From: Actinosynnema sp. ALI-1.44
Lineage (GTDB): Bacteria > Actinomycetota > Actinomycetes > Mycobacteriales > Pseudonocardiaceae
Assembly (NCBI RefSeq): GCF_001984155.1
Contig: NZ_MTQO01000022.1
Span: 1 to 64,000, forward strand
Direction of reading: 5' to 3'
DNA length: 64,000 nucleotides
Below are positions 281 to 39,483 of this stretch, one piece after another; the first letter of the stretch is position 1, and the number at the start of each line of letters is the position of its first letter. Position numbers and translations under genes: made by a program. The notes below the pieces were generated by a model. It worked only from the letters and a program-made list of their open reading frames with translations. It was not told where the DNA came from and searched no databases.

Positions 281-347
281 CTGGGGGCCGAGCCCCCAGA
301 CCCCCACGGTGCGTGTTCCTTCCGATCCAGCGCTGGGCACGACACGC
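281..347 (+). repeat. RNA-gene-associated repeat, copy A
   Basis: A perfect hairpin (CTGGGGGC-CGA-GCCCCCAG) is followed by a conserved tail with ACGGTGCGTG, CCTT and GATCCAGCGCTGGGC. Nearly the same sequence follows the terminators of initiator tRNA (28994-29070) and tmRNA (39407-39483). Copy A is the most diverged of the three. Confidence 0.8.
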
Positions 348-401
348 TGGAACCAACACGACTCCGACGTTAGTGCGGCCGTCGAAAGCGTTAACTTCCT
401 G

Positions 402-426
402 AAGGGCCCCGATGGGGCCCTTTTGC
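402..426 (+). terminator. GC-rich hairpin with T-run
   Basis: AAGGGCCCC-GAT-GGGGCCC is followed by TTTT, a textbook intrinsic terminator. It lies 180 bp after the 5S gene and may be a second stop for rRNA transcription. Apart from this hairpin and the two repeat elements, 273-834 contains no convincing gene. Confidence 0.8.
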
Positions 427-488
427 ATTTGACCAGTTCGCAACCCAAGCAAAGCCGCGCGCAGCGCAGAGGTGGGCTTCGGGGGTGT

Positions 489-620
489 CTCCTGCCCGTC
501 GGCCTGGGCGAAGCCAACCACGGGCTGTCAAGAGGTCGGCCTGCCCAAAGAGCCCCAGCGACAGCCATACCGATCCTCTTGATAGTCCGTGGTTCCCTGG
601 GGCAGGTCGACGGGCAGGAG
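489..620. repeat. Long palindromic element, copy 1
   Basis: Arms of about 50 nt (489-539 and 570-620) are largely complementary. The outer CTCCTGCCCGTCG and inner TCAAGAGG blocks pair well, and the middle is mismatched. A loop of about 30 nt separates them. Copy 2 (39718-39859) has the same layout and clear sequence similarity. It encodes no plausible protein and could be a MITE or a REP-like hairpin. Confidence 0.75.
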
Positions 621-834
621 GCGCCCGCGCCCTGAAACCCCGGAACAAGAAAAGCATGCGCGAGGACAAACACCCCGCGAAGACCTCCTGCCCAGAGGTC
701 TGCTCCCGGCGAGGGCCCTTCTTTTCACCCGGGGACACCGCGGCATGACCGTCACAGTGCTCCGAGGCTCGCAAGTGTCGAAACGAACAGGGGCCTCAGC
801 GAACGAGGCGAACAGAGGTTCTAACGTTGAAGGC

Positions 835-1581
835 ATGACACGCCTGCTCGTGATCCAGCCCGACGACTCCGACCCGGCCGCCAACCTCGGGGACTGGCTG
901 ACCGCGGCCGGTGCCGACCTGCACCTGGTGCGGCCTTTCGACGAGCCGCTGCCCGCGCTCGACGGCTACCAGGGCGTGGTCTGCCTCGGCGGCGAGATGG
1001 GTGCGCTGGACGACGTGAAACACCCGTGGCTCAAGGACGTGCGGCAGCTGCTGGCGTCCGCGACCGGCAACCGCGTGCCCGTGCTCGGTGTGTGCCTCGG
1101 CGGCCAGTTGCTGGCGGTCGCGACGGGTGGCCGTGTCGTCGTCGGCGAAGCCGGGCCCGAGGTCGGGCCGTCGCTGGTGGCCAAGCGGGACGCGGCGTGG
1201 ACAGATCCCCTTTTCGGTGAATCCCCGCTGATGCTGGACGTGATGCAGTTCCACCTCGACGCGATCGACCGGCTGCCACCGGGAGCGGAACTCATGGCGT
1301 CGTCGGGCAAGTACCCGAACCAGGCCTTCCGGCTCAACGGTTGCGCGTACGGCCTGCAGTTCCACATCGAGACGACCACCGACATGGTGCTCAAGTGGGC
1401 ACAGATGGGGCCGGAAGCGGCCGGTACCGCGCGGCCCGGTGCGCTGGAGCGGGAGAACCTCGACGCCGTGCACGCGGACATCGCCGAGACCTGGGAGCCA
1501 ATCGCTGTCAAATTCGTGCGACTTGCCTCCGGGGAGCTGCCGCTCGCCGACCGAGCTCGCAACACGCTTCCGCTGGTGTGA
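835..1581 (+). CDS. Class I glutamine amidotransferase domain protein
   Basis: A 248-residue cytosolic protein with the class I glutaminase triad: the nucleophile Cys87 in VLGVCLGGQLLA and His177/Glu179 in LQFHIE. Family members release ammonia from glutamine, and many stand-alone forms resemble the GATase domain of GMP synthetase or gamma-glutamyl hydrolases. The acceptor substrate cannot be read from the sequence. I chose ATG 835 because similarity to the family begins there. The longer in-frame extension to 589 runs through the palindromic repeat region and is implausible. The gene lies upstream of the phosphate transporter and glnE/glnA, a nitrogen-related setting. Function is certain at superfamily level only. 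Confidence 0.88.
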   Translation: MTRLLVIQPDDSDPAANLGDWLTAAGADLHLVRPFDEPLPALDGYQGVVCLGGEMGALDDVKHPWLKDVRQLLASATGNRVPVLGVCLGGQLLAVATGGRVVVGEAGPEVGPSLVAKRDAAWTDPLFGESPLMLDVMQFHLDAIDRLPPGAELMASSGKYPNQAFRLNGCAYGLQFHIETTTDMVLKWAQMGPEAAGTARPGALERENLDAVHADIAETWEPIAVKFVRLASGELPLADRARNTLPLV

Positions 1582-1649
1582 AGCGACAACATGCCCGGTT
1601 TGGGGTAATTCCCGGGCGTGTCACCCGTTCTCGCAGGTCCCGTCGTTGC

Positions 1650-1678
1650 GTTCACCCTCTGGTTAGGTAGCGTTCACG
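1650..1678 (+). promoter_or_regulatory. Candidate PhoP (PHO) box
   Basis: Three 7-mers occur at an exact 11-bp period: GTTCACC (1650), GGTTAGG (1661) and GTTCACG (1672). Direct repeats of GTTCACC-like units at 11 bp are the actinobacterial PhoP operator design. The box ends 32 bp before the GTG start of the Pit phosphate transporter. The middle unit matches poorly. Confidence 0.6.
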
Positions 1679-1710
1679 CGCAAGTGACCTTCAAAACCGG
1701 AGGGGCATGC

Positions 1711-2847
1711 GTGGATCCCACGCTTCTCGTCGTTGTGGTCGTGGCCACCGCCCTGGCTTTCGACTTCACCAACGGCTTCCATGACACGGCCAACGCGATG
1801 GCCACCTCGATCGCGACCGGTGCTCTGCGACCCAGAACCGCCGTCGCCTTGTCCGCCGTTCTCAACCTCGTCGGGTCGTTCCTGTCCGTGGAGGTCGCCA
1901 AGACCATCTCGGGTGGCATCGTCGACGACGCCAAGATCACCCCCGCGGTCATCTTCGGCGGCCTGATCGGCGCGATCATCTGGAACCTGATCACCTGGTA
2001 CGTCGGGCTGCCGTCCAGTTCCTCGCATGCCCTGTTCGGCGGCCTGATCGGGGCGACGTGGGTGGCGAGCGGGATCGACGCCGTGCACTTCGCCAAGGTC
2101 GTCGAGAAGGTCCTGGTGCCCGCGGTGGCGGCGCCGGTCGTCGCCGGGCTCGTCGCCGCCGGAGCGACCTACCTGACCTACCGCCTGACCAGGGGCGGTG
2201 ACGCCAAGACCGTCGCGCGCGGCTACAAAGCCGGACAGGTGGTGTCGGCGTCGTTGGTCTCGTTGGCACACGGCACCAACGACGCACAGAAGACCATGGG
2301 CATCATCACCCTGACGTTGATCGCCTCCGGGTCGCTCGCCGCCGGATCCGGGCCGCCCGTGTGGGTGATCATCAGCGCGGGTGTGGCGATCGCGCTCGGG
2401 ACGTACCTCGGCGGCTGGCGGATCACGCACACGCTCGGCAAGAAGCTGACCACCATCGAACCGCCGCAGGGCTTCGCCGCCCAGACCAGCTCGGCCGTGG
2501 TGATCCTCGCTTCGTCACACGTCGGCTTCGCGCTCTCGACAACCCACGTGTGCTCCGGCGGCGTGATGGGCTCCGGGCTTGGCCGTGCGCCGGGCGGTGT
2601 GCGTTGGGGCGTGTTCGGGCGTATGGCGCTCGCGTGGCTCGTCACGTTGCCCGCCGCGGGAGCCGTGGGTGCCATAGCGGGCATGGTGGCGCAGAAGGGC
2701 ACGGTTGGTGTTGTCGCTGTGGCTGCGGTCGGAGTCCTGGTGTCGGTAGGGATCTGGCTCGCGTCGCGGCGGCGCCCGGTCCGGCCGGAGCACGTGGTCG
2801 ACGAGATCGCGCCGCAGGCCGAGCCGCACGAGATCAAGGCGGCCTGA
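1711..2847 (+). CDS. pit: Pit-family inorganic phosphate transporter
   Basis: A 378-residue polytopic membrane protein of the PiT family (low-affinity phosphate/metal-phosphate:H+ symport). The two family signatures are present: FDFTNGFHDTANAMATS near the N terminus and LAHGTNDAQKTMG in the second half, each followed by hydrophobic helices. GTG 1711 is the chosen start because GGAGGGGC (1699-1706) is placed as its ribosome-binding site and the family N terminus (DPTLLVVVVVATALAFDF) begins there. A 31-codon upstream extension is less likely. The stop overlaps the ATG of the next gene (TGATGA), so the two are translationally coupled. A candidate PHO box upstream suggests phosphate control. Confidence 0.93.
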   Translation: MDPTLLVVVVVATALAFDFTNGFHDTANAMATSIATGALRPRTAVALSAVLNLVGSFLSVEVAKTISGGIVDDAKITPAVIFGGLIGAIIWNLITWYVGLPSSSSHALFGGLIGATWVASGIDAVHFAKVVEKVLVPAVAAPVVAGLVAAGATYLTYRLTRGGDAKTVARGYKAGQVVSASLVSLAHGTNDAQKTMGIITLTLIASGSLAAGSGPPVWVIISAGVAIALGTYLGGWRITHTLGKKLTTIEPPQGFAAQTSSAVVILASSHVGFALSTTHVCSGGVMGSGLGRAPGGVRWGVFGRMALAWLVTLPAAGAVGAIAGMVAQKGTVGVVAVAAVGVLVSVGIWLASRRRPVRPEHVVDEIAPQAEPHEIKAA

Positions 2848-3032
2848 TGACCATCAACTGGGCAGCTTTCGGCAGCGTCTTCCTGGTCAGTGTGCTCGCG
2901 ACGCTGTTGGTCACCGTGCTGTTCGCGGTCGGTGTCGTGGCGAAGGGCCGGGGCAAGCTGGTAGTGGCCTACGGAAGTTTCGCCGTGTGCGGAGCGGTGA
3001 CCTTGCTCGGGATCGCGGTCATTCTGGCGTAG
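2847..3032 (+). CDS. Small membrane protein coupled to pit
   Basis: A 61-residue protein with two predicted transmembrane segments (about residues 6-30 and 40-60) separated by a short basic loop (KGRGK). Its ATG overlaps the pit stop codon. Small two-helix proteins directly after pit are common in actinomycetes (the pitH2 partner of Streptomyces is an example), so it is probably an accessory subunit. No enzymatic motif is visible. Confidence 0.8.
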   Translation: MTINWAAFGSVFLVSVLATLLVTVLFAVGVVAKGRGKLVVAYGSFAVCGAVTLLGIAVILA

Positions 3033-3043
3033 TTTCTACGGTG

Positions 3044-5974
3044 ATGGCTGATCGCGCGCGTACCGTCACGTCCCCCGCCCGCTTCGGGCTCACGGACGAC
3101 CGTGCCGACGCTGCGTTGAGAGCGGTCGGGTGGTGGGGCGACGGCGGTCCTGTACCGGGTGCGGAACGCATGCTGGCCGCGTTGTCCCGCAGTCCCGATC
3201 CGAACCTCGCGCTGCGTGGGATCGACCGGATGCGGGAATCCGGTCCGTGGACCGAGCTCGATGCCGCACTGCGCGACGACGTGCGCCTGCGCGGCAAACT
3301 GATCGCCGTGCTCGGCGCTTCGACCGCCCTCGCGGATTTCCTCGTCGCGAATCCCGACAGCTGGCGAACGCTGAGCACCGGCGTCCGGCCCGATCTGATC
3401 GCGGTCGTCGACGGCGTGACGGGGCCGGACGCGGTCAAAGCGCTGCGGGCGGCCTACCGCGAACAGTTGCTGCTGATCGCGGCGGACGACCTCGGGCACC
3501 TCGTCGAACCGGAACTGGCTGCGCCCGCCTACGACGACGTGGCCGCGCGTCTGACCACGCTCGCCGAAGAGGCGCTGCGGGCGTCGCTTGTGGTCGCGCA
3601 AACCGAGCAGGGCCCGAACGACGCGCGGCTCGCGGTCATCGCCATGGGCAAGTGCGGGGGCCACGAGCTCAACTACGTCAGCGACGTCGACGTGGTGTTC
3701 GTCGGCGAAGACGACCTGGACGTGGCGACCCGGCTGGCCAGCCGGATGATGACGGTCGCGGGCGCGGCCTGCTTCGAGGTGGACGCGGCGCTGCGACCGG
3801 AAGGCAAGGCGGGCGCGTTGGTACGCACCCTGGAGGGGCATACCGCGTACTACCGCCGCTGGGCGCGGACATGGGAGTTCCAGGCGCTGCTCAAGGCCCG
3901 GCCGGTCGCGGGCGACGCCGAACTCGGCGCGGCCTATTTGGACGTTGTCCGGCCGATGGTGTGGACCGCGGCCGACCGCGACGGTTTCGTGGCCGACGTG
4001 CAGCAGATGCGGCGCCGTGTGGAGGAGCACGTGCCCGCGGAGCTCGTCGAGCGCGAGCTGAAACTCGGCCGCGGCGGGCTGCGTGACGTCGAGTTCGCCG
4101 TGCAGCTGCTGCAACTGGTGCACGGCCGCAGCGACGACACCTTGCGCCTCGGCTCCACCACCGCCGCGTTGGCCGCGTTGGGTGCGGGTGGTTATGTCGG
4201 CCGTGCGGACGCGGCGGGCCTAGGGGAGTCGTACCGGTTCCTGCGCACGTTGGAGCACCGTCTGCAGCTGCAGAAGCTGCGGCGCACGCACCTGTTTCCT
4301 GACGAGAACGACATTTTCGACCTGCGCTGGCTCGCACGCGCCGCGGGAGTGCGGCCCGACCGCGGCCGCGCCGTGGAGCAGGTGCTGCTGTCCGAGTTCA
4401 GACGGCACGCCAACCGTGTGCGCCGGCTGCACGAGAAACTGTTCTATCGGCCGCTGCTGGAGGCGGTCGCCAACGTACCGACCGAGACGTTGCGGCTGAC
4501 CGCGACCGAGGCCGCTGCCCGGCTCGGTGCGCTCGGCTACGCCAGCCCGGAAGGTGCGCTGAACCACATTTCGGCGCTGACCAGCGGTGTCTCCCGACGC
4601 GCGGCGATCCAGGGCGCGCTGTTGCCCGTACTGCTTGACCTGCTCGCACACACGCCGGACCCCGACGGCGGGCTGCTGTCGTACCGCAAGATGTCCGAGG
4701 CGCTTGCCACGACGCCCTGGTACCTGCGGTTGCTGCGTGACGAAGGCGCGGTTGTCGAGCGGATCGCCCTACTGCTGGGCACGTCCAAGCTCGTGCCGGA
4801 GATGGTCACGCGAGCACCGGAAGTCCTGCGTCTGCTCGCGGACACGAACGAGCTCGCTGGCCGTGACCCCGGAGAAGTGGCGCAGTCGCTGCGCACAGCC
4901 GTTGCACGACACCGTGACCTACGCGGTGCGGTCACTGCCGCTAGGTCACTGCGTCGCCACGAAATCGCGCGAGTCGCGTGCGCCGACCTGCTCGGACTGA
5001 TGGAGACACCGGCCGTGTGCGCGGCGCTGTCGAGCGTGTGGGTCGCTGTGTTGCAGTCCGCGCTCGCCGCCGCCGAGCGGGAGAAGGCCGTGGAGCACGG
5101 CGGTTGGCCCAAGGCGAAGATCGCGATCATCGGCATGGGCAGGCTCGGCGGCGCCGAACTGGGCTACAACTCGGACGCCGACGTCATGTTCGTGTGCGAG
5201 GCCGTCGAAGGAGTCCGAGACGACGACGCGGTGAAGTTCGCGTCGTCGGTCGTGGAGTCGATGCGCCGTGCTCTCGGTGCGCCGAGCCAGGACCCGCCGT
5301 TGGAAGTCGATGTCGGCTTGCGACCCCAAGGCAGACAAGGTGCGCTCGTGCGCACGTTGAACTCGTACGTCGCGTACTACCGCCAGTGGAGCGAAGTCTG
5401 GGAAGCACAGGCGTTGCTGCGGGCGACGTTCGTCGCGGGAGATGAGGACCTGGGTACGCGTTTCCTCGACACTGTCAACGAATTCCGTTACCCCCGTAAA
5501 GGTTTGGACGCCACGAGCGTGCGGGAGATCCGCCGGATCAAGGCGCGCGTGGACAATGAACGGCTGCCGCGCGGTGCGGACCCGACCACGCACACCAAGC
5601 TGGGCCGCGGTGGGCTCGCCGACATCGAATGGACTGTGCAGTTGTTGCAACTGCAGCACGCGCACGAGGTGCCGTCGCTGCGGACAACGGCGACGCTCGA
5701 AGGCCTTGTCGCCGCTGAACAAGCGGAGCTGATCACGTCCGACGACGCGGCGGAACTGCGTGCCGCGTGGCTGCTGGCGACCAGCGTCCGCAACGCCGCG
5801 ACCCTCGTCCGCGGCAAGCAGACCGACCAGGTGCCGACGTCCGGACGTGAGTTGTTCGCTGTGGCAAGCGCTTTGGGATACCCGAGCGACGCCGACCCTG
5901 GCGAGTTCCTCGACGCCTACCGGCGTACGACGCGCCGTGCCCGCGCTGTGGTCGAACGGATCTTCTACGACTAG
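3044..5974 (+). CDS. glnE: Bifunctional glutamine synthetase adenylyltransferase / adenylyl-removing enzyme
   Basis: A 976-residue cytosolic enzyme that attaches AMP to, and removes it from, the regulatory tyrosine of glutamine synthetase. It contains two nucleotidyltransferase modules. The N-terminal (removing) one has GKCGGHELNYVSDVDVVFV at about residue 200. The C-terminal (adenylylating) one has GMGRLGGAELGYNSDADVMFV at about residue 697. Each is followed by its own helical GlnD/PII-uridylyltransferase-like domain (LGRGGLRDVEFAVQLLQL and LGRGGLADIEWTVQLLQL). Length matches the mycobacterial enzyme. The start is ATG 3044, with an in-frame GTG one codon earlier also possible. Its substrate GlnA is encoded 1.2 kb away on the opposite strand. 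Confidence 0.97.
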   Translation: MADRARTVTSPARFGLTDDRADAALRAVGWWGDGGPVPGAERMLAALSRSPDPNLALRGIDRMRESGPWTELDAALRDDVRLRGKLIAVLGASTALADFLVANPDSWRTLSTGVRPDLIAVVDGVTGPDAVKALRAAYREQLLLIAADDLGHLVEPELAAPAYDDVAARLTTLAEEALRASLVVAQTEQGPNDARLAVIAMGKCGGHELNYVSDVDVVFVGEDDLDVATRLASRMMTVAGAACFEVDAALRPEGKAGALVRTLEGHTAYYRRWARTWEFQALLKARPVAGDAELGAAYLDVVRPMVWTAADRDGFVADVQQMRRRVEEHVPAELVERELKLGRGGLRDVEFAVQLLQLVHGRSDDTLRLGSTTAALAALGAGGYVGRADAAGLGESYRFLRTLEHRLQLQKLRRTHLFPDENDIFDLRWLARAAGVRPDRGRAVEQVLLSEFRRHANRVRRLHEKLFYRPLLEAVANVPTETLRLTATEAAARLGALGYASPEGALNHISALTSGVSRRAAIQGALLPVLLDLLAHTPDPDGGLLSYRKMSEALATTPWYLRLLRDEGAVVERIALLLGTSKLVPEMVTRAPEVLRLLADTNELAGRDPGEVAQSLRTAVARHRDLRGAVTAARSLRRHEIARVACADLLGLMETPAVCAALSSVWVAVLQSALAAAEREKAVEHGGWPKAKIAIIGMGRLGGAELGYNSDADVMFVCEAVEGVRDDDAVKFASSVVESMRRALGAPSQDPPLEVDVGLRPQGRQGALVRTLNSYVAYYRQWSEVWEAQALLRATFVAGDEDLGTRFLDTVNEFRYPRKGLDATSVREIRRIKARVDNERLPRGADPTTHTKLGRGGLADIEWTVQLLQLQHAHEVPSLRTTATLEGLVAAEQAELITSDDAAELRAAWLLATSVRNAATLVRGKQTDQVPTSGRELFAVASALGYPSDADPGEFLDAYRRTTRRARAVVERIFYD

Positions 5975-5988
5975 TCGCGTGTAAGGCT

Positions 5989-6038
5989 CGCCGGTCGGCC
6001 CTCGTGCTGCGCGCGTCGGTGAGGGTGGCCGACCGGCG
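5989..6038. terminator. Bidirectional hairpin between glnE and marR-type gene
   Basis: CGCCGGTCGGCC(CTC) pairs with (GAG)GGTGGCCGACCGGCG in the gap between two convergent genes. There is no T-run, so it may slow or define 3' ends rather than terminate strongly. Confidence 0.6.
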
Positions 6039-6047
6039 GGAGCCGGT

Positions 6048-6473
6048 TCACCACTCGGCCAAGATGGCGCGGTAGCGGGGCAGGATCTCGGCGACCCGCC
6101 GCAGATCGGCCTCGGGGTACTCGGCGAACAGTTCGACCATCGACTGGTACATGCCGTCGAAGAGCGCGAATGCCTGCTCGGTGCCCTCGGGCTGGACGGT
6201 GAGAAGCACCCGGCGCCGATCGGCGGGATCGACTTCCCTTGTCACGTAACGATTCTTCTCCAGCCGGGCAGCCATGGCGCTGATCGCGGCATTGGTGAGC
6301 CCGAGCTCGGAGGCGACCTCCCCTGGGCTCATCGGACCCCGCCGGTGGAGCAGGGTGAGGCAGATCAGGTCGGTCTGGTTGATGCCGAGCCGCGAAGCCG
6401 CGGCGTTGCCAACCCGATCCAAGGCCATGGACAGCTCGAACAACTCCCCGGCCAACTGGCGCGCCAACTCCAT
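6048..6473 (-). CDS. MarR-family transcriptional regulator
   Basis: A 141-residue dimeric winged-helix repressor. The DNA-binding region reads LTLLHRRGPMSPGEVASELG, then LTNAAISAMAARLEKNRYV, then the wing with the family DxRRR-type block (EVDPADRRRVLLTV). ATG 6473 is chosen, and a TTG four codons upstream is the alternative. Neither has a good ribosome-binding site. It is divergent from a membrane-protein gene, and a palindrome lies over the start region, so autoregulation and control of the neighbour are likely. The ligand is unknown. Confidence 0.9.
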   Translation of the reverse strand: MELARQLAGELFELSMALDRVGNAAASRLGINQTDLICLTLLHRRGPMSPGEVASELGLTNAAISAMAARLEKNRYVTREVDPADRRRVLLTVQPEGTEQAFALFDGMYQSMVELFAEYPEADLRRVAEILPRYRAILAEW

Positions 6474-6481
6474 GAAAATAC

Positions 6482-6494
6482 TCAAATCATTTGA
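6482..6494. promoter_or_regulatory. Palindromic operator candidate for the MarR protein
   Basis: TCAAAT-C-ATTTGA is an A/T-rich perfect 6-bp inverted repeat in otherwise GC-rich DNA, placed in the short gap between the divergent MarR gene and the membrane-protein gene. The position fits a MarR operator that covers both promoters. Confidence 0.5.
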
Positions 6495-6525
6495 CTATTA
6501 GACGGTTTGAAGAAACCCTAACAGC

Positions 6526-6888
6526 ATGCTGCCGATAGCCATCGCGCTGTCCTGGGTGGGGTTCGTCCTGCACAACGTGGCGGACCTGCCAGGCCAGACA
6601 CTGCTGAGCCCGGAAATCCTCTACCCGACGCTGGCCTACCTCATGGTGATCGCGTCGATGCTGTGGACAAGCTGGCCGCTGTTCGGCTGGGCGGTGCTTC
6701 AAGGTGTGGGCGGCGGAATCATCAGCGTCCTGCCGTTGCCCTTCCTGCCCTTCGACCCAGCGCAGACGCTGCACCACTACTCGTTCCACGTGATCTACAC
6801 GCTCACGCAGATCCCGCTGATGGTCCTGAGCTACCGAGCTGCCGTTCGACCCAGTCGAGGTACGCGGGAAGCTTCCGATCCACGCTGA
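6526..6888 (+). CDS. Small integral membrane protein, divergent from MarR
   Basis: A 120-residue hydrophobic protein with about four predicted transmembrane helices: residues 1-17, 31-48, 50-68, and a last one around the HYSFHVIYTLTQIPLMVLSY segment. I do not recognise the family. No clear Shine-Dalgarno precedes ATG 6526, so the mRNA may be leaderless. The divergent MarR regulator and the shared palindrome suggest it is the regulated target. The last ~85 bp overlap a possible antisense small gene (6803-6952). Confidence 0.7.
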   Translation: MLPIAIALSWVGFVLHNVADLPGQTLLSPEILYPTLAYLMVIASMLWTSWPLFGWAVLQGVGGGIISVLPLPFLPFDPAQTLHHYSFHVIYTLTQIPLMVLSYRAAVRPSRGTREASDPR

Positions 6889-6952
6889 ACGGATCGAGGT
6901 CGGTTTCGCGAAGCTGTCGGGCAAGCTCCGGGTACTCCTGGAATGTGGCCAT
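6803..6952 (-). CDS. Possible 49-residue hypothetical protein
   Basis: The reading frame starts MATFQEYPELARQLRETD and has normal charged/hydrophobic composition and GC-rich third positions. Its ATG overlaps, on the opposite strand, the ATG of the 70-residue ORF at 6951, and its end overlaps the 3' end of the gene at 6526. At most one of the two divergent start codons is likely to be used. No family is recognised. Confidence 0.35.
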   Translation of the reverse strand: MATFQEYPELARQLRETDLDPFSVDRKLPAYLDWVERQLGSSGPSAGSA

Positions 6953-7163
6953 GACGATAGCGCCGGACCGCGTCGGCTTCTGGCGTTGGCTGATCAGAGG
7001 ACCGCGCGTGCTGTGGTTCGTCGTCGGTGTGGCCGCAGCGGTGACCCTGCAGTACACCTGGGTCGGCCCGTCGGCGCCTGTAGTCCGGACGATCGCGCTG
7101 TCCGCTGTGCTTGTCCTGATCTTCCTCGTTATCACCTACCGCCATTGGCGCCAGACACGATGA
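6951..7163 (+). CDS. Small two-helix membrane protein
   Basis: A 70-residue protein with a short basic N terminus (FWRWLIRGPR) and two predicted transmembrane segments (about residues 19-36 and 44-63), ending YRHWRQTR. There is no obvious ribosome-binding site. The gene ends directly before a strong terminator hairpin. The function is unknown. Confidence 0.55.
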   Translation: MTIAPDRVGFWRWLIRGPRVLWFVVGVAAAVTLQYTWVGPSAPVVRTIALSAVLVLIFLVITYRHWRQTR

Positions 7164-7202
7164 AGGCCGGGTGATCGAGGAAGAACCTCGATCACCCGGC
7201 CT
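7164..7202. terminator. Bidirectional terminator hairpin
   Basis: A perfect 17-bp stem (7164-7180 with 7186-7202) and AAGAA loop lie between the convergent 70-residue ORF and glnA. It can stop transcription from both sides. Confidence 0.8.
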
Positions 7203-7225
7203 GGTGCCCTACGGCGTACTGCCGA

Positions 7226-8650: not shown

Positions 8651-8722
8651 GCTCGTAGGCTCCTTACTCAGTGCTTGGCGCCGACGGGCGCCCCACTTCC
8701 GTCGTGAAGCTATGAGTGTGGT

Positions 8723-8760
8723 GTTGCCCGACCGTCACCCATGTGTTTCGCCGATGTTAA
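8723..8760 (-). promoter_or_regulatory. GlnR operator upstream of glnA
   Basis: Read on the minus strand: TTAAC-n6-GAAAC-n6-GTGAC-n6-GCAAC. This is the complete actinobacterial GlnR pattern (gTnAC-n6-GaAAC twice at 22-bp period), with one mismatch in the first half-site and one in the last. It lies 72-110 bp upstream of the glnA start codon. Confidence 0.78.
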
Positions 8761-8828
8761 CGAGCACCTCGATGTCGCAAATGTCGACCGTTGGACGCCG
8801 CCGCGTGACGGCGTTCTACTCTGGTGGG

Positions 8829-28858: not shown

Positions 28859-28932
28859 CGCGGGGTGGAGCAGTTCGGTAGCTCGCTGGGCTCATAACCC
28901 AGAGGTCGCAGGTTCAAATCCTGTCCCCGCTA
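28859..28932 (+). tRNA. Initiator tRNA-Met (CAT)
   Basis: A complete cloverleaf is visible, with anticodon CAT in the loop CTCATAA. It is the initiator: the first base pair is a C1-U72 mismatch and the anticodon stem has the three G:C pairs GGG/CCC. The CCA end is not encoded. It lies 75 bp after the UPF0182 gene. Confidence 0.95.
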
Positions 28933-28941
28933 CGCGAGTGG

Positions 28942-28993
28942 GCGAGCCATGGTCGGTGCTTTCGCACCTTCCGTGGCTCGCTTCGTTTATTTT
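28942..28993 (+). terminator. Terminator of initiator tRNA gene
   Basis: GCGAGCCA pairs with TGGCTCGC (28942-28981), and an inner GGTGC/GCACC stem lies within it. The hairpin is followed by a T-rich TTCGTTTATTTT. Confidence 0.85.
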
Positions 28994-29070
28994 GAGGGGC
29001 CGAGCCCCCCAAGCCCCCCACGGTGCGAGCTCCTTCTGATCCAGCGCTGGGCGCGACTCGCTTTTACCAG
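28994..29070 (+). repeat. RNA-gene-associated repeat, copy B
   Basis: GGGGC-CGA-GCCCC hairpin, then CCAAGCCCCCCACGGTGCG, TCCTT, GATCCAGCGCTGGGCGCG and TCGCTTTTACCAG. It is nearly identical to copy C after tmRNA and similar to copy A after 5S rRNA. It starts directly after the terminator T-run. I see no gene or clear signal in 29071-29448. Confidence 0.85.
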
Positions 29071-29448
29071 CTTTTGGTGTGTGGGTGCGCGTTTTCCCGT
29101 TTTTCCCAGAGTTGTTCTCAATAGAGGGTCCCTCGCTGCTCCACTGTGACTGGTGGCGTTCGTCCATCCGGGTTGTTTCTTCCTCTGTGCGCCCGCACCG
29201 TGAGCGGCCCAGTCGCTTCGCGGGCGGACGGTGGTGGCGGGTGTGGCATCCGTACTTCGTCAAGTCGGCGTCCCATCACGACTGGTTCGGCGTTCGCTTG
29301 GGACGCAGCCGGTTCGCGGTGTTCCGAGTGGAAACCGTTGTCGGTTAACGCATTGGTATACCGTCGATCACCGAGGGCAATTGATGTCCACTGTGGAGTC
29401 CACAACGCTGACACGTGCGGTAATCGGCCGAACGCACTGCGCTACTTG

Positions 29449-30676: not shown

Positions 30677-30711
30677 CCATTGTGGACAGATGCCCTGCCC
30701 ATTGTGGACAG
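30677..30711 (+). repeat. Two 13-bp direct repeats upstream of the PadR gene
   Basis: CCATTGTGGACAG occurs at 30677-30689 and again at 30699-30711, exactly 22 bp apart (two helical turns) and 29 bp before the GTG of the PadR gene. It is a candidate operator. The reverse complement is one base from a DnaA box. Confidence 0.5.
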
Positions 30712-30739
30712 CGAGCGAAATTCATGGCACGGTGGTTAC

Positions 30740-31240: not shown

Positions 31241-31315
31241 ACGAAAGGAGCCGGTCGGCGCCAAATGGCCGACCGGCAACGCACCGGCACGCGGTCTGAC
31301 GTAACCTTCTTGGCC

Positions 31316-32413: not shown

Positions 32414-32472
32414 GGGTGTTGGACCCCACCAAGGCAACAGGCGGATAACGGTCGTGGGTAGACTCCGCGACC

Positions 32473-33162
32473 GTGATCCGGCTTGAACATGTTTCCAAGA
32501 ACTACAAGACGTCGACGCGCCCCGCGCTGGACGACGTCTCGGTGGACATGGACAAGGGGGAGTTCGTCTTCCTGATCGGCCCGTCCGGCTCGGGGAAGTC
32601 CACCTTCCTGCGCTTGCTGCTGCGCGAAGAAGTGCCGTCCAAGGGCAAGCTCTACGTCAACAACTTCGACATCACCCGGATGTCCCGCCGCCGGATCCCC
32701 CGGCTGCGGCAGTCCATCGGGTGCGTGTTCCAGGACTTCCGACTGCTGGTCAACAAGACCGTGGCGGAGAACGTGGCGTTCGCGCTCGAGGTGATCGGCA
32801 AGCCCTCGCACACCATCAAGAAGGTCGTGCCCGAGGTGCTGGAGCTGGTCGGGCTCGACGGCAAGGCGAACCGCATGCCCAACGAGCTGTCCGGCGGTGA
32901 GCAGCAGCGTGTGGCGATCGCGCGCGCGTTCGTCAACCGGCCGCTGATGCTGCTGGCCGACGAGCCGACGGGAAACCTCGACCCCGACACCAGCCAGGAC
33001 ATCATGCTGCTGCTGGAGCGGATCAACCGCACCGGCACCACAGTGCTGATGGCCACCCACGACCACTCCATCGTGGACTCGATGCGCCGCAGAGTCGTCG
33101 AGCTCGCGTTCGGCAGGGTCATCAGGGACGACGCCCGAGGCGTCTACGGCGTAGGCCGCTAA
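32473..33162 (+). CDS. ftsE: Cell division ATP-binding protein FtsE
   Basis: A 229-residue ABC ATPase. Walker A is GPSGSGKST at 36-44, the signature is [17 protein letters not shown], Walker B is [12 protein letters not shown], and the switch His is in MATHDHSIV. With FtsX it forms a complex at the division site that activates peptidoglycan hydrolases. GTG start at 32473. ftsX follows after 40 bp. Confidence 0.96.
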
Positions 33163-33202
33163 GCCTTAGTAAATCCCCCGACCTGCGAGGAAACCCGCAC
33201 CG

Positions 33203-34108
33203 ATGCGTTTCAGTTTCGTGTTGTCCGAGGTACTGACCGGGCTTCGGCGCAACGTCACGATGACCGTTGCGATGATCCTGACCACCGCCATCTCGCTCGG
33301 ACTGCTGGGGGGCGGTCTGCTGGTGGTGCGCATGATCGACCATATGCGCGACAACTTCGGCGACGAGGTCGAAGTGAACGTGTACCTGAACAAGGACATC
33401 AGCGGCACGGACAAGGGCTGCACGGCGCAGCCGTGTGCGGGCATCAAGTCCGCTCTCGAGCAGGACGCCAACGTCGAGGAAACCAGGTACGAGAACCAGG
33501 ACGAGGCCTTCGAACGGTTCAAGCGGGTCTTCTCGGGACAGCCCGAGCTGCTGGATCTGACCAGGAAGGAAGCGCTGCCCGGCACCTTCCACCTGAAGCT
33601 GAAGAACCCCGACCGGGCCAACGTGATCGTCCAGACCTACAGCAACAAACCGGGGATCAGCAGCGTCGAGGACCAGGGCATCTTCCTCGAACGGTTCTTC
33701 GGCGTGCTCAACGGCGTCCGGAACGCCACGTGGGTGGTCGCGGCCATCCAGGCCATCGCGGCGTTGCTGCTGATCTCCAACACGATCCAGGTCTCGGCGT
33801 TCACCAGGCGGACGGAAGTCGGCATCATGCGCCTCGTCGGTGCGACGCGCTGGTACACACAGCTGCCGTTCCTCTTGGAGGCGGTGGTCGCCGGCCTTGT
33901 CGGTGCGGTCCTCGCGGTCGCCGGTCTCGTCGGTATCAAGGGGATCTTCGTCGACAACGTCCTCGCCGAACCGATTTCCGCCGGCATCATCCCGAAGATC
34001 GAGATGCTGGACATCTTCTGGCCGGTCGCGCCGATCCTGGTGGCCGTGGCGATCTTGATCTCGGCCATCACCGGCTACGTCACCCTGCGGCTCTACGTGC
34101 GAACTTAA
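33203..34108 (+). CDS. ftsX: Cell division membrane protein FtsX
   Basis: A 301-residue membrane partner of FtsE with a short cytosolic N terminus ([20 protein letters not shown]), one helix, an extracytoplasmic domain (residues about 50-170, including a Cys pair GCTAQPC), and three further helices of the FtsX permease domain ([32 protein letters not shown]). Start ATG 33203. Confidence 0.95.
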
Positions 34109-34139
34109 CCGTTCGCGCGGTGTCGTAGAGTTCATAGTC

Positions 34140-34622
34140 ATGGCGAAAGAACGTGGTCAGAAGGTGATCGCGTCGAACCGGAAGGCGCGGCACGACTACG
34201 AGATCCTCGACACCTACGAGTGCGGGATCGTGTTGGTCGGGACCGAGGTCAAGAGCCTGCGGATCGGCCGCGCCTCGCTGGTCGACGCGTTCGCCACGGT
34301 CGACGACGGCGAGGTGTGGCTGCGTGGACTGCACATCGCCGAGTACGAGATGGGCACGTGGACCAACCACGAGCCCCGGCGGCGGCGCAAGCTGCTGTTG
34401 CACAAGGGCGAGATCCTCAAGCTGATCGGCAAGACCAAGGAGAGCGGCCTGAGCCTGGTGCCGTTGTCGATGTACTTCAAGGACGGCAAGGTCAAGGTCG
34501 AGCTGGCGCTGGCCAGGGGTAAGCGTGCCTACGACAAGCGGCAGGCGCTGGCCAAGCGAACGGCCGAGCGCGAGATGGTCAAAGCCGTCGGCCGCGCCCG
34601 CAAGCGCGGCGGTGGCTGGTGA
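34140..34622 (+). CDS. smpB: SsrA-binding protein SmpB
   Basis: A 160-residue protein that binds tmRNA and brings it to stalled ribosomes. Conserved blocks are [29 protein letters not shown], the [19 protein letters not shown] strand pair, and the basic C-terminal tail ([16 protein letters not shown]...RARKRGGGW). Its RNA partner is encoded at 38967. The stop overlaps the start of the next gene (GTGA). Confidence 0.97.
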
Positions 34623-35548
34623 GGGATTCCGAGCTCCGGTCGTTCGTGACCGGGCTCGGCCTGCCCGGCATCGTCGACATCCACGTCCACTTCATGCCGC
34701 AGTCCGTCCTGGACAAGGTGTGGGCGTACTTCGACAACGCCCGCGAGAACTACGGCCTCGAATGGCCGGTCCAGTACCGGTTCGACGAGGACGAACGGGT
34801 CCGGCTGCTGCGGTCGTTCGGCGTCACCCGGTTCGCGCCGCTGGCGTACCCGCACAAGCCGGGCATGGCGGAGTGGCTGAACGAGTGGACCCGCGACTTC
34901 ACCGCCCGCACCGAGGGGGCCGTGCTCGCCGCGACGTTCTTCCCCGAGCCCGAGGTCGACGCGTACCTGGCCAAGGCGCTGGACGCGGGGGCGCGGTGCG
35001 TGAAGGCCCACGTCCAGATCGGCGGCTACGACCCGAGGACGTCCGAACTGGACGGCGCGTGGGGGATGCTCGCCGAGGCGGGCGTGCCCGTGGTTGTGCA
35101 CTGTGGACACGGCCCGCTCCGCGGCGCGTTCACCGGTCTGGACATCTTCGGCGAGGTGCTGGCACGCCACCCGGAGCTCACCCTCGTCCTCGCGCACGCC
35201 GGGATGCCGGATTTCGACGCGGCGTTCGACCTGGTCAGCCGCTACCGGAACGTGTACGTCGACACCACCATGGTCGGGGTCGACTTCGGGGCGCCCGTGC
35301 CGGACGACTTCCCTGCCCTGCTGGCCCGTCACCCGGACCGGGTCGTGCTCGGCACCGACTACCCGAACATCCCGTACGAGTACGCACACCAGATCGAAGT
35401 GATCGCCGGTTGGGCTGCCCGGGACGAGCGGCTCGGCCCCGAGTTCCTCAGGGCCGTGCTGCACGACACCCCAGCGCGGTTGCTAGGCCGCGCCTCGAGG
35501 CCCCCGAGTCACGACCTAGGCATTGCGGACGAGGCTGACCGAAGGTAG
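34619..35548 (+). CDS. Amidohydrolase-family (amidohydro_2) protein
   Basis: A 309-residue TIM-barrel hydrolase. The metal-binding HxH occurs near the N terminus ([11 protein letters not shown]). His residues follow in [20 protein letters not shown] and [10 protein letters not shown], and the last strand carries the metal Asp ([14 protein letters not shown]). Such enzymes act on ring amides or decarboxylate aromatic acids, and the substrate is unknown. The start overlaps the smpB stop by four bases, suggesting coupling. The last 33 bp overlap the convergent acyltransferase gene. Confidence 0.88.
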
Positions 35549-36787
35549 CCGGTAGCGCACCGCGAGCAGTCCACTCAGGACGACCGCGCTCCACACCGAC
35601 GCGCCGACCGGCATCACACCGCTGCCGGGAGCGAACCCGGTCGCCGCGATCCCCAATGTGCCCGCGGCGATCACCGCCGTACCGAGCATGACCTGCAACG
35701 CGGGTGGCTGGAGCACGAGCGGCCCTGGTGCCTGGGCCTCGAACCGGCCGAACGCCCGCAGCAGGCCGTACAACACCGCGGCGCACGAACCGATCCACAG
35801 GGGCAGGACCGCGAACCAGAGGACGCTGCCGGGGGCCGGCGTGCTGTAGCCGAGGCCGATCGTCCACACACCGGCCACCGCGACCATCGCGGACATGTGC
35901 CACAGGTAGAGGCTCATCGACCGGGCACCGACCCAGGTCAGCGCCCGTGCGGCGGCGGGACGCGCGACCAGCGACCGGATCAACGGCCTGGCCAGCAGGA
36001 TGAGGCCGATCTGGCCGACGCCGAGCGTGATCAGGCACGTGGTCGGCGGGCCCGCGTTCGACACCGGAGCGCCCGGCATGCCGATCATGCTCAGCGGGTA
36101 CGGTCCGAACGCGACCAGCAAGGCGGTCAGGCCGAAGCCCGTCGCGGCCATCGCCCCGGCCGCCCGCATCGACGGCGGGTTGTTGGCGTAGTGGAAGCCG
36201 AGCTGGTGCACCGCGAGCCACACGAAGCCAGCGTTGAGGAACCCGGCCATCGGTACACCGCTGAAGCGCAGCACGTCGACGAGCACAGCCGCCCCGACCA
36301 GAGCCGCGAACACGCGCATGCCGTAGCGCTCCTGAGCCTTGATCAGCCACGGCGTCACGAGGATCGCTGCGAGGTACACGGCCATGAACCACAGCAACTG
36401 GCCGACCACCGCGCTGCCCACGTCCAACGGCTGCGACGGCACGTCCAGCATGGTCAGCAGGTGCGGCAGGAGCAGCCACACGCCGATCAACGGGAGCATC
36501 GGGACCGCGAGGCGGTGCACCCGGGCCGAGAGCCAGTCCCGGTCCGAGCCGCCCCGGCCGCGGTGCGACCGCAGCGACAACAGGTTCGCCGCACCACCGG
36601 CGAAGAACACCAACGGCATCACTTGGCCGACCCAGGTCAGTGCCCACCAACCTGGTGTGGCGTAAGCGTTCCCCGTGGTCAGTTCGGTGCCGTTCCAGCC
36701 GAGCACCGGCACGAGCCAGTGCTGGAACACCACCAGCACGATGGCCAGAACCCTGACCACATCAAGAAAAGGATCTCGCTTGGACAC
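35516..36787 (-). CDS. Acyltransferase 3 family membrane protein
   Basis: A 423-residue protein with about ten transmembrane helices. The N-terminal RDPFLDVVRVLAIVLVVFQHW carries the R/D...R...H pattern of acyltransferase 3 (membrane O-acyltransferases of sugars and lipids), and SMSLYLWHMSAM is the conserved later block. The acceptor is unknown. GTG 36787 is preceded by GGGGGAC. It is transcribed toward the amidohydrolase gene, overlapping its 3' end. Confidence 0.85.
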   Translation of the reverse strand: MSKRDPFLDVVRVLAIVLVVFQHWLVPVLGWNGTELTTGNAYATPGWWALTWVGQVMPLVFFAGGAANLLSLRSHRGRGGSDRDWLSARVHRLAVPMLPLIGVWLLLPHLLTMLDVPSQPLDVGSAVVGQLLWFMAVYLAAILVTPWLIKAQERYGMRVFAALVGAAVLVDVLRFSGVPMAGFLNAGFVWLAVHQLGFHYANNPPSMRAAGAMAATGFGLTALLVAFGPYPLSMIGMPGAPVSNAGPPTTCLITLGVGQIGLILLARPLIRSLVARPAAARALTWVGARSMSLYLWHMSAMVAVAGVWTIGLGYSTPAPGSVLWFAVLPLWIGSCAAVLYGLLRAFGRFEAQAPGPLVLQPPALQVMLGTAVIAAGTLGIAATGFAPGSGVMPVGASVWSAVVLSGLLAVRYRLPSVSLVRNA

Positions 36788-36901
36788 CGTGTCCCCCGTT
36801 TCGCTTGGCTGACAAAAGCTTCGCGAATGGGGGACGGAAGATCACTGGTGTCTGCTCCCAAGCGGGAGAGGGGGTTTTCCCTACCCCGACAGGGGAGTCA
36901 C

Positions 36902-37546
36902 CTACCTGCGTTCCAGGTACGCCAGCACGGCACGCACCCTGCGGTGCTCCTCCTGGCTCGGCTCGAGGCCGAGCTTGGCGAAGATGTTGCCGACGTGCTT
37001 CTCCACGGCGCCGTCCGAGACGGTCAGCGACTTCGCGATGGCGGCGTTGGACATGCCCTGCGCCATCAGCCCGAGGACCTCGCGTTCGCGCGGTGTCAGC
37101 GCGTCGATCGGATTACGTCTGCCCCGTGCCATGAGCTGCGAGATCACCTCCTGATCGATGGCCGTCCCACCGCGAGCGACCCGGTTGACCGCGTCGACGA
37201 ACTCGGCGACGTCGGCCACCCGCTCCTTGAGCAGGTAGCCGACGCCGCCGGCGCCGGACGAGATCAGTTCGACCGCGTAGCGCTCCTCGACGTACTGCGA
37301 GAGCACCAGCACCGGCAAGTCAGGCGTGCGTTCGCGGGCCCGCAACACGGCCCGCAGTCCTTCGTCGGTGAACGTCGGCGGCATCCGGACGTCCACAATG
37401 GCCAGATCCGGCCGGTGCTCGTCGAGGACCTCGAGCAGCCGCTCGCCGTCCTCGACGGCGGCGACGGTCTCGATGCCCTCGTCCGCGAGCAGTCGTTCGA
37501 TTCCGGCGCGCAGCAGTACGGAGTCCTCCGCGATCACCACTCGCAC
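36902..37546 (-). CDS. NarL/LuxR-type response regulator
   Basis: A 214-residue protein with receiver domain phospho-acceptor Asp52 (DLAIVDVRMPP), an acidic pocket at VIAEDSV and a conserved Lys in GYLLKERV. The C-terminal LuxR HTH reads LTPREREVLGLMAQGMSNAAIAKSL...VEKHVGNIFAKL. Its start overlaps the 3' end of the kinase gene by 13 bp, so the two form a coupled two-component pair. The signal and targets are unknown. Confidence 0.93.
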   Translation of the reverse strand: MRVVIAEDSVLLRAGIERLLADEGIETVAAVEDGERLLEVLDEHRPDLAIVDVRMPPTFTDEGLRAVLRARERTPDLPVLVLSQYVEERYAVELISSGAGGVGYLLKERVADVAEFVDAVNRVARGGTAIDQEVISQLMARGRRNPIDALTPREREVLGLMAQGMSNAAIAKSLTVSDGAVEKHVGNIFAKLGLEPSQEEHRRVRAVLAYLERR

Positions 37547-38823
37547 GGCAGGTCCGCCCGGATCACTGTCGGCCCGCCCACGGGGCTCACCACGGTCAGC
37601 ACGCCGTCAATGGTGGCAGCCCGGTCGGCCAGCCCAGCCAGGCCACCCCCACGCTGCGTAGACGCGCCGCCTACACCGTTGTCAGTGATCTCGACGACAA
37701 CCTTGCTGCTGCCTTCCCGGTACACGTGGACGGACGCCTGAGACGCGTCGGAGTACTTCGCGACGTTCGTCAACGCCTCGGCCACGGTGAAGTAGGCAGT
37801 GCTCTCGACGGCCGCGGGCGGGCGGTTGTCCGACGACAGGCCGTCCTCCACCCGCACGTCCACAGGCACGGGCGACTTCGCGGCGAGCGACGACAACGCC
37901 GCGTCCAGCCCACGGTCACCCAGCACGGCCGGGTAGATGCCACGCGCGAGGTCACGCAGCTCCGCGACCGCCTGCTTGGCGTCCGCGTGCGCCTCGTCGA
38001 TCAGCGCCTTGGCGCCCTCCGGGTCCCGCTCCATCTTGCTCTTGGCCCGGCCGAGACCCATCGCGACCGCGACCAGCCGCTGCTGGGCCCCGTCGTGCAG
38101 GTCACGCTCGATCCGGCGCCGCTCGGCCTCGGCGGCGTCCACCCCACGCGCCCGGCTCGCCTGCAGGTGAGCGGCCTCCGCGGCGAGCAACATCGCCTTG
38201 CTCGGCCCCAGCAACGCCCTCGCCAGCTTGCCGCGCACCTGCCCGAGCCACTTCGTCGTCACCAGGGCGAGGCACAGAACCAGCACCCCCACCAACGCGG
38301 GGATGAGCGTGTCATCGAGCGAGTTCACCAGGTAGGAAGCGCCGCGGACGTCGCCGAAGAGGATGACCCCGTTGTCGACCCACCGGTACCAGATGGGCAG
38401 CGTCGCCAGGCCGAGGCCGACCGCCCAGAACACGACCATCCACCCGAACGACGCGATGGACACCGGCAGCAACAGCACGAGGTAGAGCAGGTCACGCCAC
38501 GTCGCGGGATCGGTGAACCGGCCCTTGAACACCCCGACGAGGCCCGACGGCACCGGCCGGTAGGGATCAGGCACGTAGTAGCCGAGCGAGGCGTACACCA
38601 GCCGACGCTCGAACCGGGCGAAACCCCTGATCAGCATCATGGTCAAGATCAGAAGCGGGAACCCCACCCACACGACCAGCGTGCCGAAGGAAACCCCGAG
38701 CAACCCCATCACCAGCGGGAACCAGGCCACAGCCATGACGAAGCTGGTGAACAGGTAGACGTTCGCCCCCACGGCACCTGGCTGATGCTGACGCCCGTCA
38801 ACCTGCTCCACCTGAGTGTTCAT
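37534..38823 (-). CDS. Sensor histidine kinase of the two-component pair
   Basis: A 429-residue kinase. The N-terminal half has about four to six hydrophobic helices (FVMAVAWFPLVMGLLGVSFG and others) forming a membrane sensor domain. HisKA_3 follows with His243 in RIERDLHDGAQQRLVAVAMG, then the ATPase domain (EITDNGVGGA, GGGLAGLADRAATIDG). ATG 38823 is the chosen start, and sequence upstream of it is less plausible. It resembles actinobacterial envelope-stress or drug-sensing kinases. Confidence 0.92.
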   Translation of the reverse strand: MNTQVEQVDGRQHQPGAVGANVYLFTSFVMAVAWFPLVMGLLGVSFGTLVVWVGFPLLILTMMLIRGFARFERRLVYASLGYYVPDPYRPVPSGLVGVFKGRFTDPATWRDLLYLVLLLPVSIASFGWMVVFWAVGLGLATLPIWYRWVDNGVILFGDVRGASYLVNSLDDTLIPALVGVLVLCLALVTTKWLGQVRGKLARALLGPSKAMLLAAEAAHLQASRARGVDAAEAERRRIERDLHDGAQQRLVAVAMGLGRAKSKMERDPEGAKALIDEAHADAKQAVAELRDLARGIYPAVLGDRGLDAALSSLAAKSPVPVDVRVEDGLSSDNRPPAAVESTAYFTVAEALTNVAKYSDASQASVHVYREGSSKVVVEITDNGVGGASTQRGGGLAGLADRAATIDGVLTVVSPVGGPTVIRADLPCEW

Positions 38824-38966
38824 GGCACAAGCATCCCAAGCCCAGCTCACAGAGGCGATGGAGCAAGCTGCCATCCCCGGGGTAGGGCCAGCCCCACCCC
38901 GGCCCGGTAACCGGAATGAACCACCAGCCCGGGCGCGTTATGCTTGGCGGGTACACACCACAACCA

Positions 38967-39344
38967 GGGGGTGAACGGTTTCGACTCTGGACGTTGATTC
39001 AAGGGAAGCGTGCAGGTGCAGGCGAGAGACCACCTCAAGCGTCGCCGCAAAAAAAATAAGCGCCAAGACTGAAACCAGTCAGGCGAACTACGCTCTTGCT
39101 GCCTAAGTAAAAGCGTAGTTTCCTTGTCGGCCCGGGAGTGCCTTCGGCCCGGTTTGCCGGCATCATCCAGAAGGCTCACCGCCGTACTCGGTCGCGGAGT
39201 GCGGTTGGGAAGCAAACAGCGACTGGGCCCGTCACACCGGCTAGTTCACGAGACCGGCGGGGTCAAGCAGAGGCACAGTGGACTGCGCACGGAGAAGCCT
39301 TGGTGAGGCGGCAGAGGACCCGGGTTCGATTCCCGGCACCTCCA
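38967..39344 (+). ncRNA. ssrA: Transfer-messenger RNA (tmRNA)
   Basis: The 5' end GGGGGTGAACGGTTTCGAC and the 3' end GGTTCGATTCCCGGCACCTCCA form the tRNA-Ala-like domain (GGGGGTG pairs with CACCTCC). The tag ORF (39062-39106) reads AKTETSQANYALAA followed by TAA, and the LAA end is the proteolysis signal. It works with SmpB, encoded 4.3 kb upstream, to rescue stalled ribosomes. CCA is not encoded. Confidence 0.97.
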
Positions 39345-39351
39345 CTCGCTC

Positions 39352-39406
39352 TGGGCGACCCTGCTCGGTTGCTTCGCAACCTCGCCGGGTCGCTCGTCAT
39401 TATTTT
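39352..39406 (+). terminator. Terminator of tmRNA
   Basis: GCGACCC...GGTTGC-TTC-GCAACC...GGGTCGC forms a two-part hairpin followed by CGTCATTATTTT. Confidence 0.85.
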
Positions 39407-39483
39407 GGGGGGCCGAGCCCCCCAAGCCCCCCACGGTGCGTGCTCCTTTCGACCCAGCGTGGGCGCGTTTTGCTTTTACCAGC
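39407..39483 (+). repeat. RNA-gene-associated repeat, copy C
   Basis: GGGGGGC-CGA-GCCCCCC hairpin followed by AAGCCCCCCACGGTGCGTG, CTCCTTTCGACCCAGCG, TGGGCGCG and TTGCTTTTACCAG. It matches copy B (after initiator tRNA) at nearly every position. It starts at the end of the tmRNA terminator. Confidence 0.85.

Follow-up and report, generated by a model that had tools for sequence, protein, structure and literature searches.

A repeat behind the terminators of stable RNA genes in Kibdelosporangium and related genera: a candidate second-stage transcription terminator

Three copies of a repeat follow stable RNA genes

The window analysed here is a stretch of 64,000 nucleotides from Actinosynnema sp. 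ALI-1.44 (contig NZ_MTQO01000022.1, positions 1 to 64,000). It contains three copies of a short repeat, each behind a gene for a stable RNA: copy A follows 5S rRNA, copy B the initiator tRNA and copy C transfer-messenger RNA (tmRNA) (Table 1). The initial annotation had pointed out these copies, the sequence blocks that they share and the RNA genes ahead of them. We searched the window with R1, a covariance model built from 23 copies in the same genome, and recovered the same three, all on the forward strand, and no further copy. An alignment confirmed the shared blocks, which are GGGGCCGAGCCCCC, CCCCCACGGTGCG, TCCTT and a CCAGCG/TGGGC block, and Rfam and ARAGORN confirmed the RNA genes. As had also been noted, the repeat behind tRNA and behind tmRNA starts where the T-run ends; the T-run of the 5S copy is poor (GTGTCTTCT). 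The tRNA-Ala(GGC) gene at 49415, described as lacking the repeat, indeed has no R1 copy behind it.

An Rfam scan of the window at gathering score returned 5S rRNA, tmRNA and two tRNAs only and no family for the element, and when the copy B region was scanned permissively, all matches fell below the gathering score. Taken alone, GATCCAGCGCTGGGC is not above chance in the window, where it occurs 8 times with up to 3 mismatches against 5.3 expected; copies A and B contain it exactly.

Table 1. Positions of the repeat copies, the RNA genes ahead of them and a gene group elsewhere in the window
Feature	Position	Strand	Basis
5S rRNA gene, ahead of copy A	102-218	+	Rfam RF00001, E 2.2e-21
Hairpin I 3' of 5S rRNA and ahead of copy A, terminator-like	230-263	+	read by eye (AGGCCTG...CAGGCCT), not folded
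Copy A	278-357	+	R1, E 2.3e-23; sequence
Copy A, hairpin II	283-297 (stem extendable through 280-300)	+	sequence
Copy A, second C-tract; ACGGTGCG; GATCCAGCGCTGGGC; terminal ACCAAC	301-305; 306-313; 324-338; 352-357	+	sequence
tRNA-Met(CAT), ahead of copy B	28859-28933	+	ARAGORN
Hairpin I 3' of tRNA-Met, then U-rich stretch reaching the element	28941-28982	+	centroid fold; sequence
Copy B	28990-29071	+	R1, E 3.5e-29; sequence
Copy B, hairpin II (single A.C mismatch)	28994-29010	+	sequence
Copy B, second C-tract; ACGGTGCG; GATCCAGCGCTGGGC; ACCAGC	29014-29019; 29020-29027; 29038-29052; 29066-29071	+	sequence
tmRNA gene, ahead of copy C	38967-39345	+	ARAGORN; Rfam RF00023, E 5.3e-49
Hairpin I 3' of tmRNA	39352-39396	+	RNA fold
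Copy C	39403-39483	+	R1, E 3.5e-30; RNA fold
Copy C, hairpin II; second C-tract; ACGGTGCG; CGACCCAGCGTGGGC; ACCAGC	39407-39423; 39427-39432; 39433-39440; 39450-39464; 39478-39483	+	
GmrSD-like gene	50228-51901		
Type I restriction genes hsdS/hsdM/hsdR	51904-57166	-	
DDE transposase gene	57364-58818		

The repeat is a family tied to RNA genes in its own genome and in relatives

The genome that contains the window (G000; 11.7 Mb in 54 contigs) has 27 copies by BLAST (E 3.3e-34 to 1.2e-7), and R1 found 30 at E≤1.5e-4 and 32 at E≤1, which excludes a chance occurrence of the repeat as a whole. Its 63 tRNAs lie in 45 clusters, and in 14 of these a same-strand R1 match stands behind the last tRNA, 13 times at a distance of 56-62 nt and once at 110. 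Three of the 14 (L055-L057) are short forms of the type GGGGGG..CCCCCC AAA CCCCCC that have no good ACGGTGCG. The remaining 16 of the 30 copies lie behind two 5S rRNA genes, tmRNA and three 3' fragments of tRNAs, at one contig start, where the hairpin upstream resembles that of tRNA-Ser, and at nine other places. Five of these nine (L003, L007, L009, L013, L015) follow stretches that BLAST found conserved at other loci, and two follow stretches that recur as judged by eye (L014 resembles the Ms1-like L230, and L027 resembles L113 and L229); for the last two, L021 and L025, the upstream stretch had no match at other loci. Short forms with similar G- and C-tract lengths and no good ACGGTGCG were seen behind tRNA-Ile, Ser and Glu (L055-L057, L131, L151).

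All eight genomes searched from the window's genus, Kibdelosporangium, have R1 matches, the present one included, with 19-47 copies each. Within the family, 87 of 150 sampled genomes were positive, from 28 of 46 genera, and 63 had no match at E≤0.001. When 298 genomes sampled across the order were searched with R2, a core model of the element, 42 matched, and 34 of these belong to the same family; outside it, one genome of family f15 had 17 copies, one of family f9 had 4, and six others had 1-2 each. In a sample of the phylum, searched with strict filters at E≤1e-4, the present genome was the sole match among 396; since the rows shown contain no other member of its family, this result is informative for other lineages only. 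Among the matches listed, the element occurs in Amycolatopsis, Saccharopolyspora, Actinokineospora, Actinophytocola, Crossiella and Pseudonocardia; Actinoplanes/Paractinoplanes and Mangrovihabitans have a short form that lacks the CTCCT...ACCAGC tail. Tabulating distance and strand in the genome and its relatives gave a strong same-strand association with RNA genes and a conservation that reaches far past the strain, so neither of the outcomes that the initial annotation had named as refuting was observed.

To see what precedes the element in other genera, we used 95 of 98 copies from 11 genomes of 11 genera (L085 and two more were left out, as were the rows of three further genomes, G118, G122 and G149). 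More than half, 54 copies, start 46-63 nt 3' of a same-strand tRNA or tmRNA; for the other 41, no tRNA or tmRNA lies within 250 nt in any arrangement. An Rfam scan of 20 of these 41 placed four behind signal recognition particle (SRP) RNA and one behind an Ms1-like RNA that scored 76.5 bits, under the family cut-off of 162. Five follow 3' fragments of tRNAs recognized by a T-arm pattern, which occurs 9 times in total in 59,436 nt of flank, and five follow protein genes (L234, L267, L277, L285, L313). A further 22 stand behind small-RNA-like stretches that recur in other genomes, as grouped by eye with partial BLAST support, and four (L226, L239, L241, L272) were placed in no class. In a separate pattern scan, 51 of 83 matches among those listed (80 loci) had a tRNA or tmRNA at most 200 nt upstream on the same strand.

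Protein genes preceding copies include those for S9, L27, L31, IF-2 and a sigma factor, and also for a ribonucleotide reductase chain, YqgE and a SatS-like protein. One Amycolatopsis genome (G016) has four copies whose hairpin II lies directly 3' of a stop codon. The distance is 7-8 nt in the three that were measured, which follow genes for a ribonucleotide reductase beta chain, a YqgE-type protein and a SatS-like protein (below cut-off) and have no space for hairpin I. One copy in another genome (G004, L074) lies 127 nt 3' of an open frame, its family assignment being unclear.

These placements bear on the idea that the element is a 3' trailer RNA with a role of its own, released from the precursors of stable RNAs as a processing signal, a stability element or a sponge for small RNAs. 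The narrow spacing at which it trails several classes of stable RNA fits such a role, as does the second C-tract, which tracks the length of the G-tract within genomes (see below) and suggests alternative pairing or a triplex. However, there is no stable RNA where copies stand right behind stop codons, and most transcripts should end at hairpin I and its U-rich stretch, before the element is reached. We consider a trailer RNA very improbable.

The small-RNA-like stretches just 5' of the element recur in several genera (L003, L007, L009, L013, L015, L102, L111, L113, L229, L231, L232, L257); several have C-rich loops, and where they were scanned there was no good Rfam match. Elements also occur in tandem arrays of three or four, spaced by about 107-115 nt (L387; G005:C1:289881-290277; G003:C2:376809-377119).

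Hairpin II covaries

From 5' to 3', the arrangement is a terminator hairpin (hairpin I), a U-rich gap, a second hairpin with a CGA loop (hairpin II), a second C-tract and ACGGTGCG, followed in many genera by an additional tail with a terminal ACCAGC. A short purine-rich spacer separates hairpin II from the C-tract, and the U-rich stretch belongs to hairpin I. Both the CGA loop and ACGGTGCG are nearly invariant.

The covariance analysis proposed in the initial annotation supports hairpin II as a paired structure. We aligned 53 copies (alignment A4; 60 loci were tried, of which 7 fell outside the picking pattern, which required a C-tract behind hairpin II). Paired cells made up 95.8% against 82.1 in shuffled alignments, 64 cells were changed on both sides against 21.7, and the covariation was 0.322 against 0.083 for shuffled and at most 0.081 for slid alignments; two of the five covariation measures stayed within the shuffle range and are weighed below. 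A pattern search gave 288 distinct hairpin windows, from which we analysed the 210 with a CGA loop; the other 78 may include chance matches. Positions 7 and 8 of the stem form Watson-Crick pairs in 189 and 187 copies, compared with 79 and 83 expected from column composition, and G.U pairs in 0 and 3, compared with 13 and 40, all uncorrected for relatedness. When copies were permuted within genomes, the pairing persisted, with 83 of 89 (maximum 69) and 79 of 89 (maximum 71), and the G.U deficit was small (0 against 2.5 and 1 against 5.8).

Folding gave a similar picture: both folded 138-nt trailers, those of copies B and C, are more stable than their shuffles (z -3.9). Covariation and folds together make hairpin II a stable G/C-rich stem-loop, as is expected of a Rho-independent terminator. 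When folded, copy C also shows a possible hairpin III (CCCACG with CGTGGG), which is absent in that form from the fold of copy B; its 5' arm is nearly invariant, leaving no variation for a pairing test.

In 168 of 256 copies the G-tract is as long as the second C-tract (permuted mean 100, maximum 126), and the equality holds when lengths are permuted inside genomes (70 of 98; mean 52.9, maximum 65 in 20,000). This match may point to alternative pairing, a triplex or a copying process at the DNA level.

Two other readings of the sequence were dropped. On the reverse strand, AGGAGC-N-CGCACC-GTG resembles a ribosome site and a start codon; inspection led us to reject an antisense reading frame, because the variable tract lengths (5/5/5, 6/6/6, 6/6/8) break the frame. 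The other was a Chi-like reading of the element end, where GCTGGT agrees with the Chi sequence at six bases.

The element is mostly maintained at its loci

We compared the genome with that of a second species (G005), matching loci by tRNA name and not by flank synteny. Eleven tRNA clusters of G000 carry a full copy, and for nine of them the same-named tRNA in G005 has a copy as well; conversely, the Asn/Met pair carries the element in G005 and its counterpart in G000 does not. Same-named elements are 0.70-0.90 identical between the species (median 0.80, 10 pairs), and the hairpin I regions have a median identity of 0.80 between same-named loci, compared with 0.59 and 0.52 between different loci. 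The 60 nt beyond ACCAGC are at background, with medians of 0.34-0.40 and 0.34 for the same-named pairs (10 pairs); tRNA-Ala(TGC), discussed below, is the exception. Because same-named elements stay alike while the sequence past ACCAGC drops to background, the element seems to be mostly maintained at its loci by constraint, with a mild similarity among copies within G000.

The alternative is a small mobile or homogenized repeat, akin to a miniature inverted-repeat transposable element (MITE) or a repetitive extragenic palindrome (REP), one that would insert 3' of RNA terminators or be propagated through gene conversion. In G000, paralogous copies are slightly closer to each other (median identity 0.83) than same-named copies are across species, species-specific sub-sequences and tandem arrays exist, and the tRNA-His and tRNA-Val loci are filled in G000 and not in G005. 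Against this, same-named pairs of G005 are closer than its paralogues (0.80 compared with 0.75), most full-copy loci are shared between the species, and few of the copies examined are distant from RNA genes or gene ends. Nor did PF01797 (Y1/RAYT) have a match in G000, G003 or G005, while 32 of 150 genomes of the family were positive; other transposase families were not screened. We consider a mobile repeat quite improbable.

A possible second stop for transcription

We propose, with moderate confidence, that the repeat serves highly transcribed units, most of them untranslated, as a second-stage transcription terminator. A role in ending transcription is favoured because of the placement behind a terminator hairpin, the sense orientation, the covariation of the stem and the stop-codon copies of Amycolatopsis. 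The repeat would then be the downstream half of a two-part 3'-end module. Polymerase would first reach hairpin I and its imperfect U-rich stretch, near the end of the mature RNA; a polymerase that reads through would transcribe the very stable G/C hairpin II, the C-tract, ACGGTGCG and, in many genera, the tail with its possible third hairpin. This second structure would most likely halt or release the escaped polymerase, and downstream genes would be insulated. The CGA loop and ACGGTGCG might contact a factor, be it NusA, NusG, Rho or a lineage-specific protein, and since no U-tract follows hairpin II, recruitment may depend on the conserved block.

The initial annotation had left the choice between a second-stage terminator, a 3'-processing signal and a transposable element that targets RNA terminators. 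The first is the best fit and is helped by the four stop-codon copies in one Amycolatopsis genome. The processing signal is weakened because copies also occur behind protein genes, and the transposable element is disfavoured by the same-strand placement, the 9 of 11 shared loci and the lack of Y1/RAYT.

A number of observations weigh against termination as the role. In the own genome, 31 of the 45 tRNA clusters have no R1 match, and the tRNA-His and tRNA-Val loci carry the element in one of the two species compared and lack it in the other. Two of the covariation measures are within the range of the shuffles, namely the double-change pairs (5 against 3.6, with 48 of 500 shuffles as high) and the pair types (12 against 10.2, with 56 of 500 as high). 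A U-run behind hairpin II was found in none of the 53 rows of A4, which had been picked for a C-tract there, and none of the three window copies, and because there is no U-tract behind the stem, hairpin II is not a standard intrinsic terminator. At tRNA-Ala(TGC), a GC stem and T-run that look like an ordinary terminator come right after the element in both species, after ACCAGC in G000 and after the corresponding element end in G005, as if the element alone were insufficient there. Termination also leaves the conserved loop and ACGGTGCG unexplained. Finally, at positions 6-8 of hairpin II G.U accounts for 4 of 582 paired cells, compared with 29 of 161 in hairpin I, whose stems were selected less strictly (loops of 3-7 nt); such rarity is surprising for a hairpin that works purely at the RNA level.

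This last point leads to a reading at the DNA level, in which the inverted repeat and ACGGTGCG form a protein-binding, cruciform or gyrase site that absorbs supercoils or blocks polymerases behind heavily transcribed genes, comparable to the REP sites and bacterial interspersed mosaic elements (BIME) of E. coli and to the terminator elements of eukaryotic rDNA. It would account for a G.U frequency that is low over 210 distinct copies and far below that of hairpin I, for the conservation of the loop and ACGGTGCG, and for copies behind RNA genes and some machinery genes. Nevertheless, the placement is locked to the sense strand of the preceding gene, the G.U deficit is small within genomes and the hairpin I stems were picked more loosely, and G/C-rich arms give little scope for G.U; nor did a candidate protein come to light, although no search was aimed at one. 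We regard a DNA-level site as unlikely.

Returning to a second-stage terminator, the lack of a U-tract, together with the conservation of the loop and block, suggests something more than a plain intrinsic terminator. A doubtful but more specific version is that the element is a dedicated second stop for untranslated high-flux units, whose palindrome, CGA and ACGGTGCG would be read at the DNA or RNA level by a lineage-specific factor. It would then be a bacterial counterpart of factor-dependent rDNA terminators and would mark the non-coding RNA genes of the family.

Relation to known systems

We found no description of the element in the literature searched, which comprised titles and abstracts with incomplete coverage. 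The nearest idea is that of tandem terminators and the nearest motif, by description, is TRIT. In tandem Rho-independent terminators such as T1-T2 of E. coli rrnB, two stem-loops in a row at the end of a heavily transcribed RNA operon reduce read-through. The present element likewise has two consecutive stem-loops behind highly transcribed RNA; its second one, however, is a sequence family found at dozens of unrelated loci, lacks a U-tract and has a conserved CGA loop and ACGGTGCG. REP/BIME sequences, which are associated with RAYT transposases, are short palindromic repeats at the 3' ends of transcription units. In contrast, the element is strand-fixed, is tied to RNA genes and resides in a genome without RAYT/Y1; with 0 matches to PF01797, we rejected an identity with REP/RAYT for the own genome.

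TRIT is reportedly a sequence-plus-structure motif enriched at gene ends of Mycobacterium tuberculosis, from the 2011 RNIE paper of Gardner et al. By that description, both are conserved sequence-plus-structure motifs at actinobacterial gene ends, and the element differs in two respects: its core matched 42 of the 298 genomes sampled from the order, with 34 of these in its own family, and it is concentrated at non-coding RNA genes. The RNIE paper is cited in PMC3526491. In Methanopyrus kandleri, a spaced palindrome about 10 bp behind roughly half of the tRNA genes was proposed to be a maturation signal (PMC5217627). It resembles the element as a conserved palindromic motif 3' of about half the tRNA genes, and differs in being archaeal and short and in adjoining the tRNA end; the accessible part of that source describes no counterpart of hairpin I, the C-tract or ACGGTGCG.

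In the clade to which Amycolatopsis, Saccharopolyspora and Actinoplanes belong, the element is a candidate for a specific signal at the 3' ends of stable RNA genes. If a factor does read it, it would represent a sequence-specific termination system for bacterial non-coding RNA. It can also serve as a beacon, as its tRNA-free copies flag recurrent small-RNA-like stretches and apparent insertion scars in tRNA genes.

tRNA genes separated from the element

In the own genome, tRNA-Lys(TTT), tRNA-Pro(CGG) and tRNA-Ala(CGC) have no element directly behind them. Exact copies of their 3' halves (38, 43 and 44 nt) lie about 41, 5 and 15 kb downstream on the same strand, and each is followed by hairpin I and the element (locus pairs L175/L026, L196/L020 and L183/L017, respectively). 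We take this as a sign that insertions cut these tRNAs off from their original 3' ends, and with them from the old terminator and element. In the window, the segment 49415-58818 holds tRNA-Ala(GGC) and, behind it, a defence-type gene group (Table 1), a neighbourhood that is consistent with the same insertion history.

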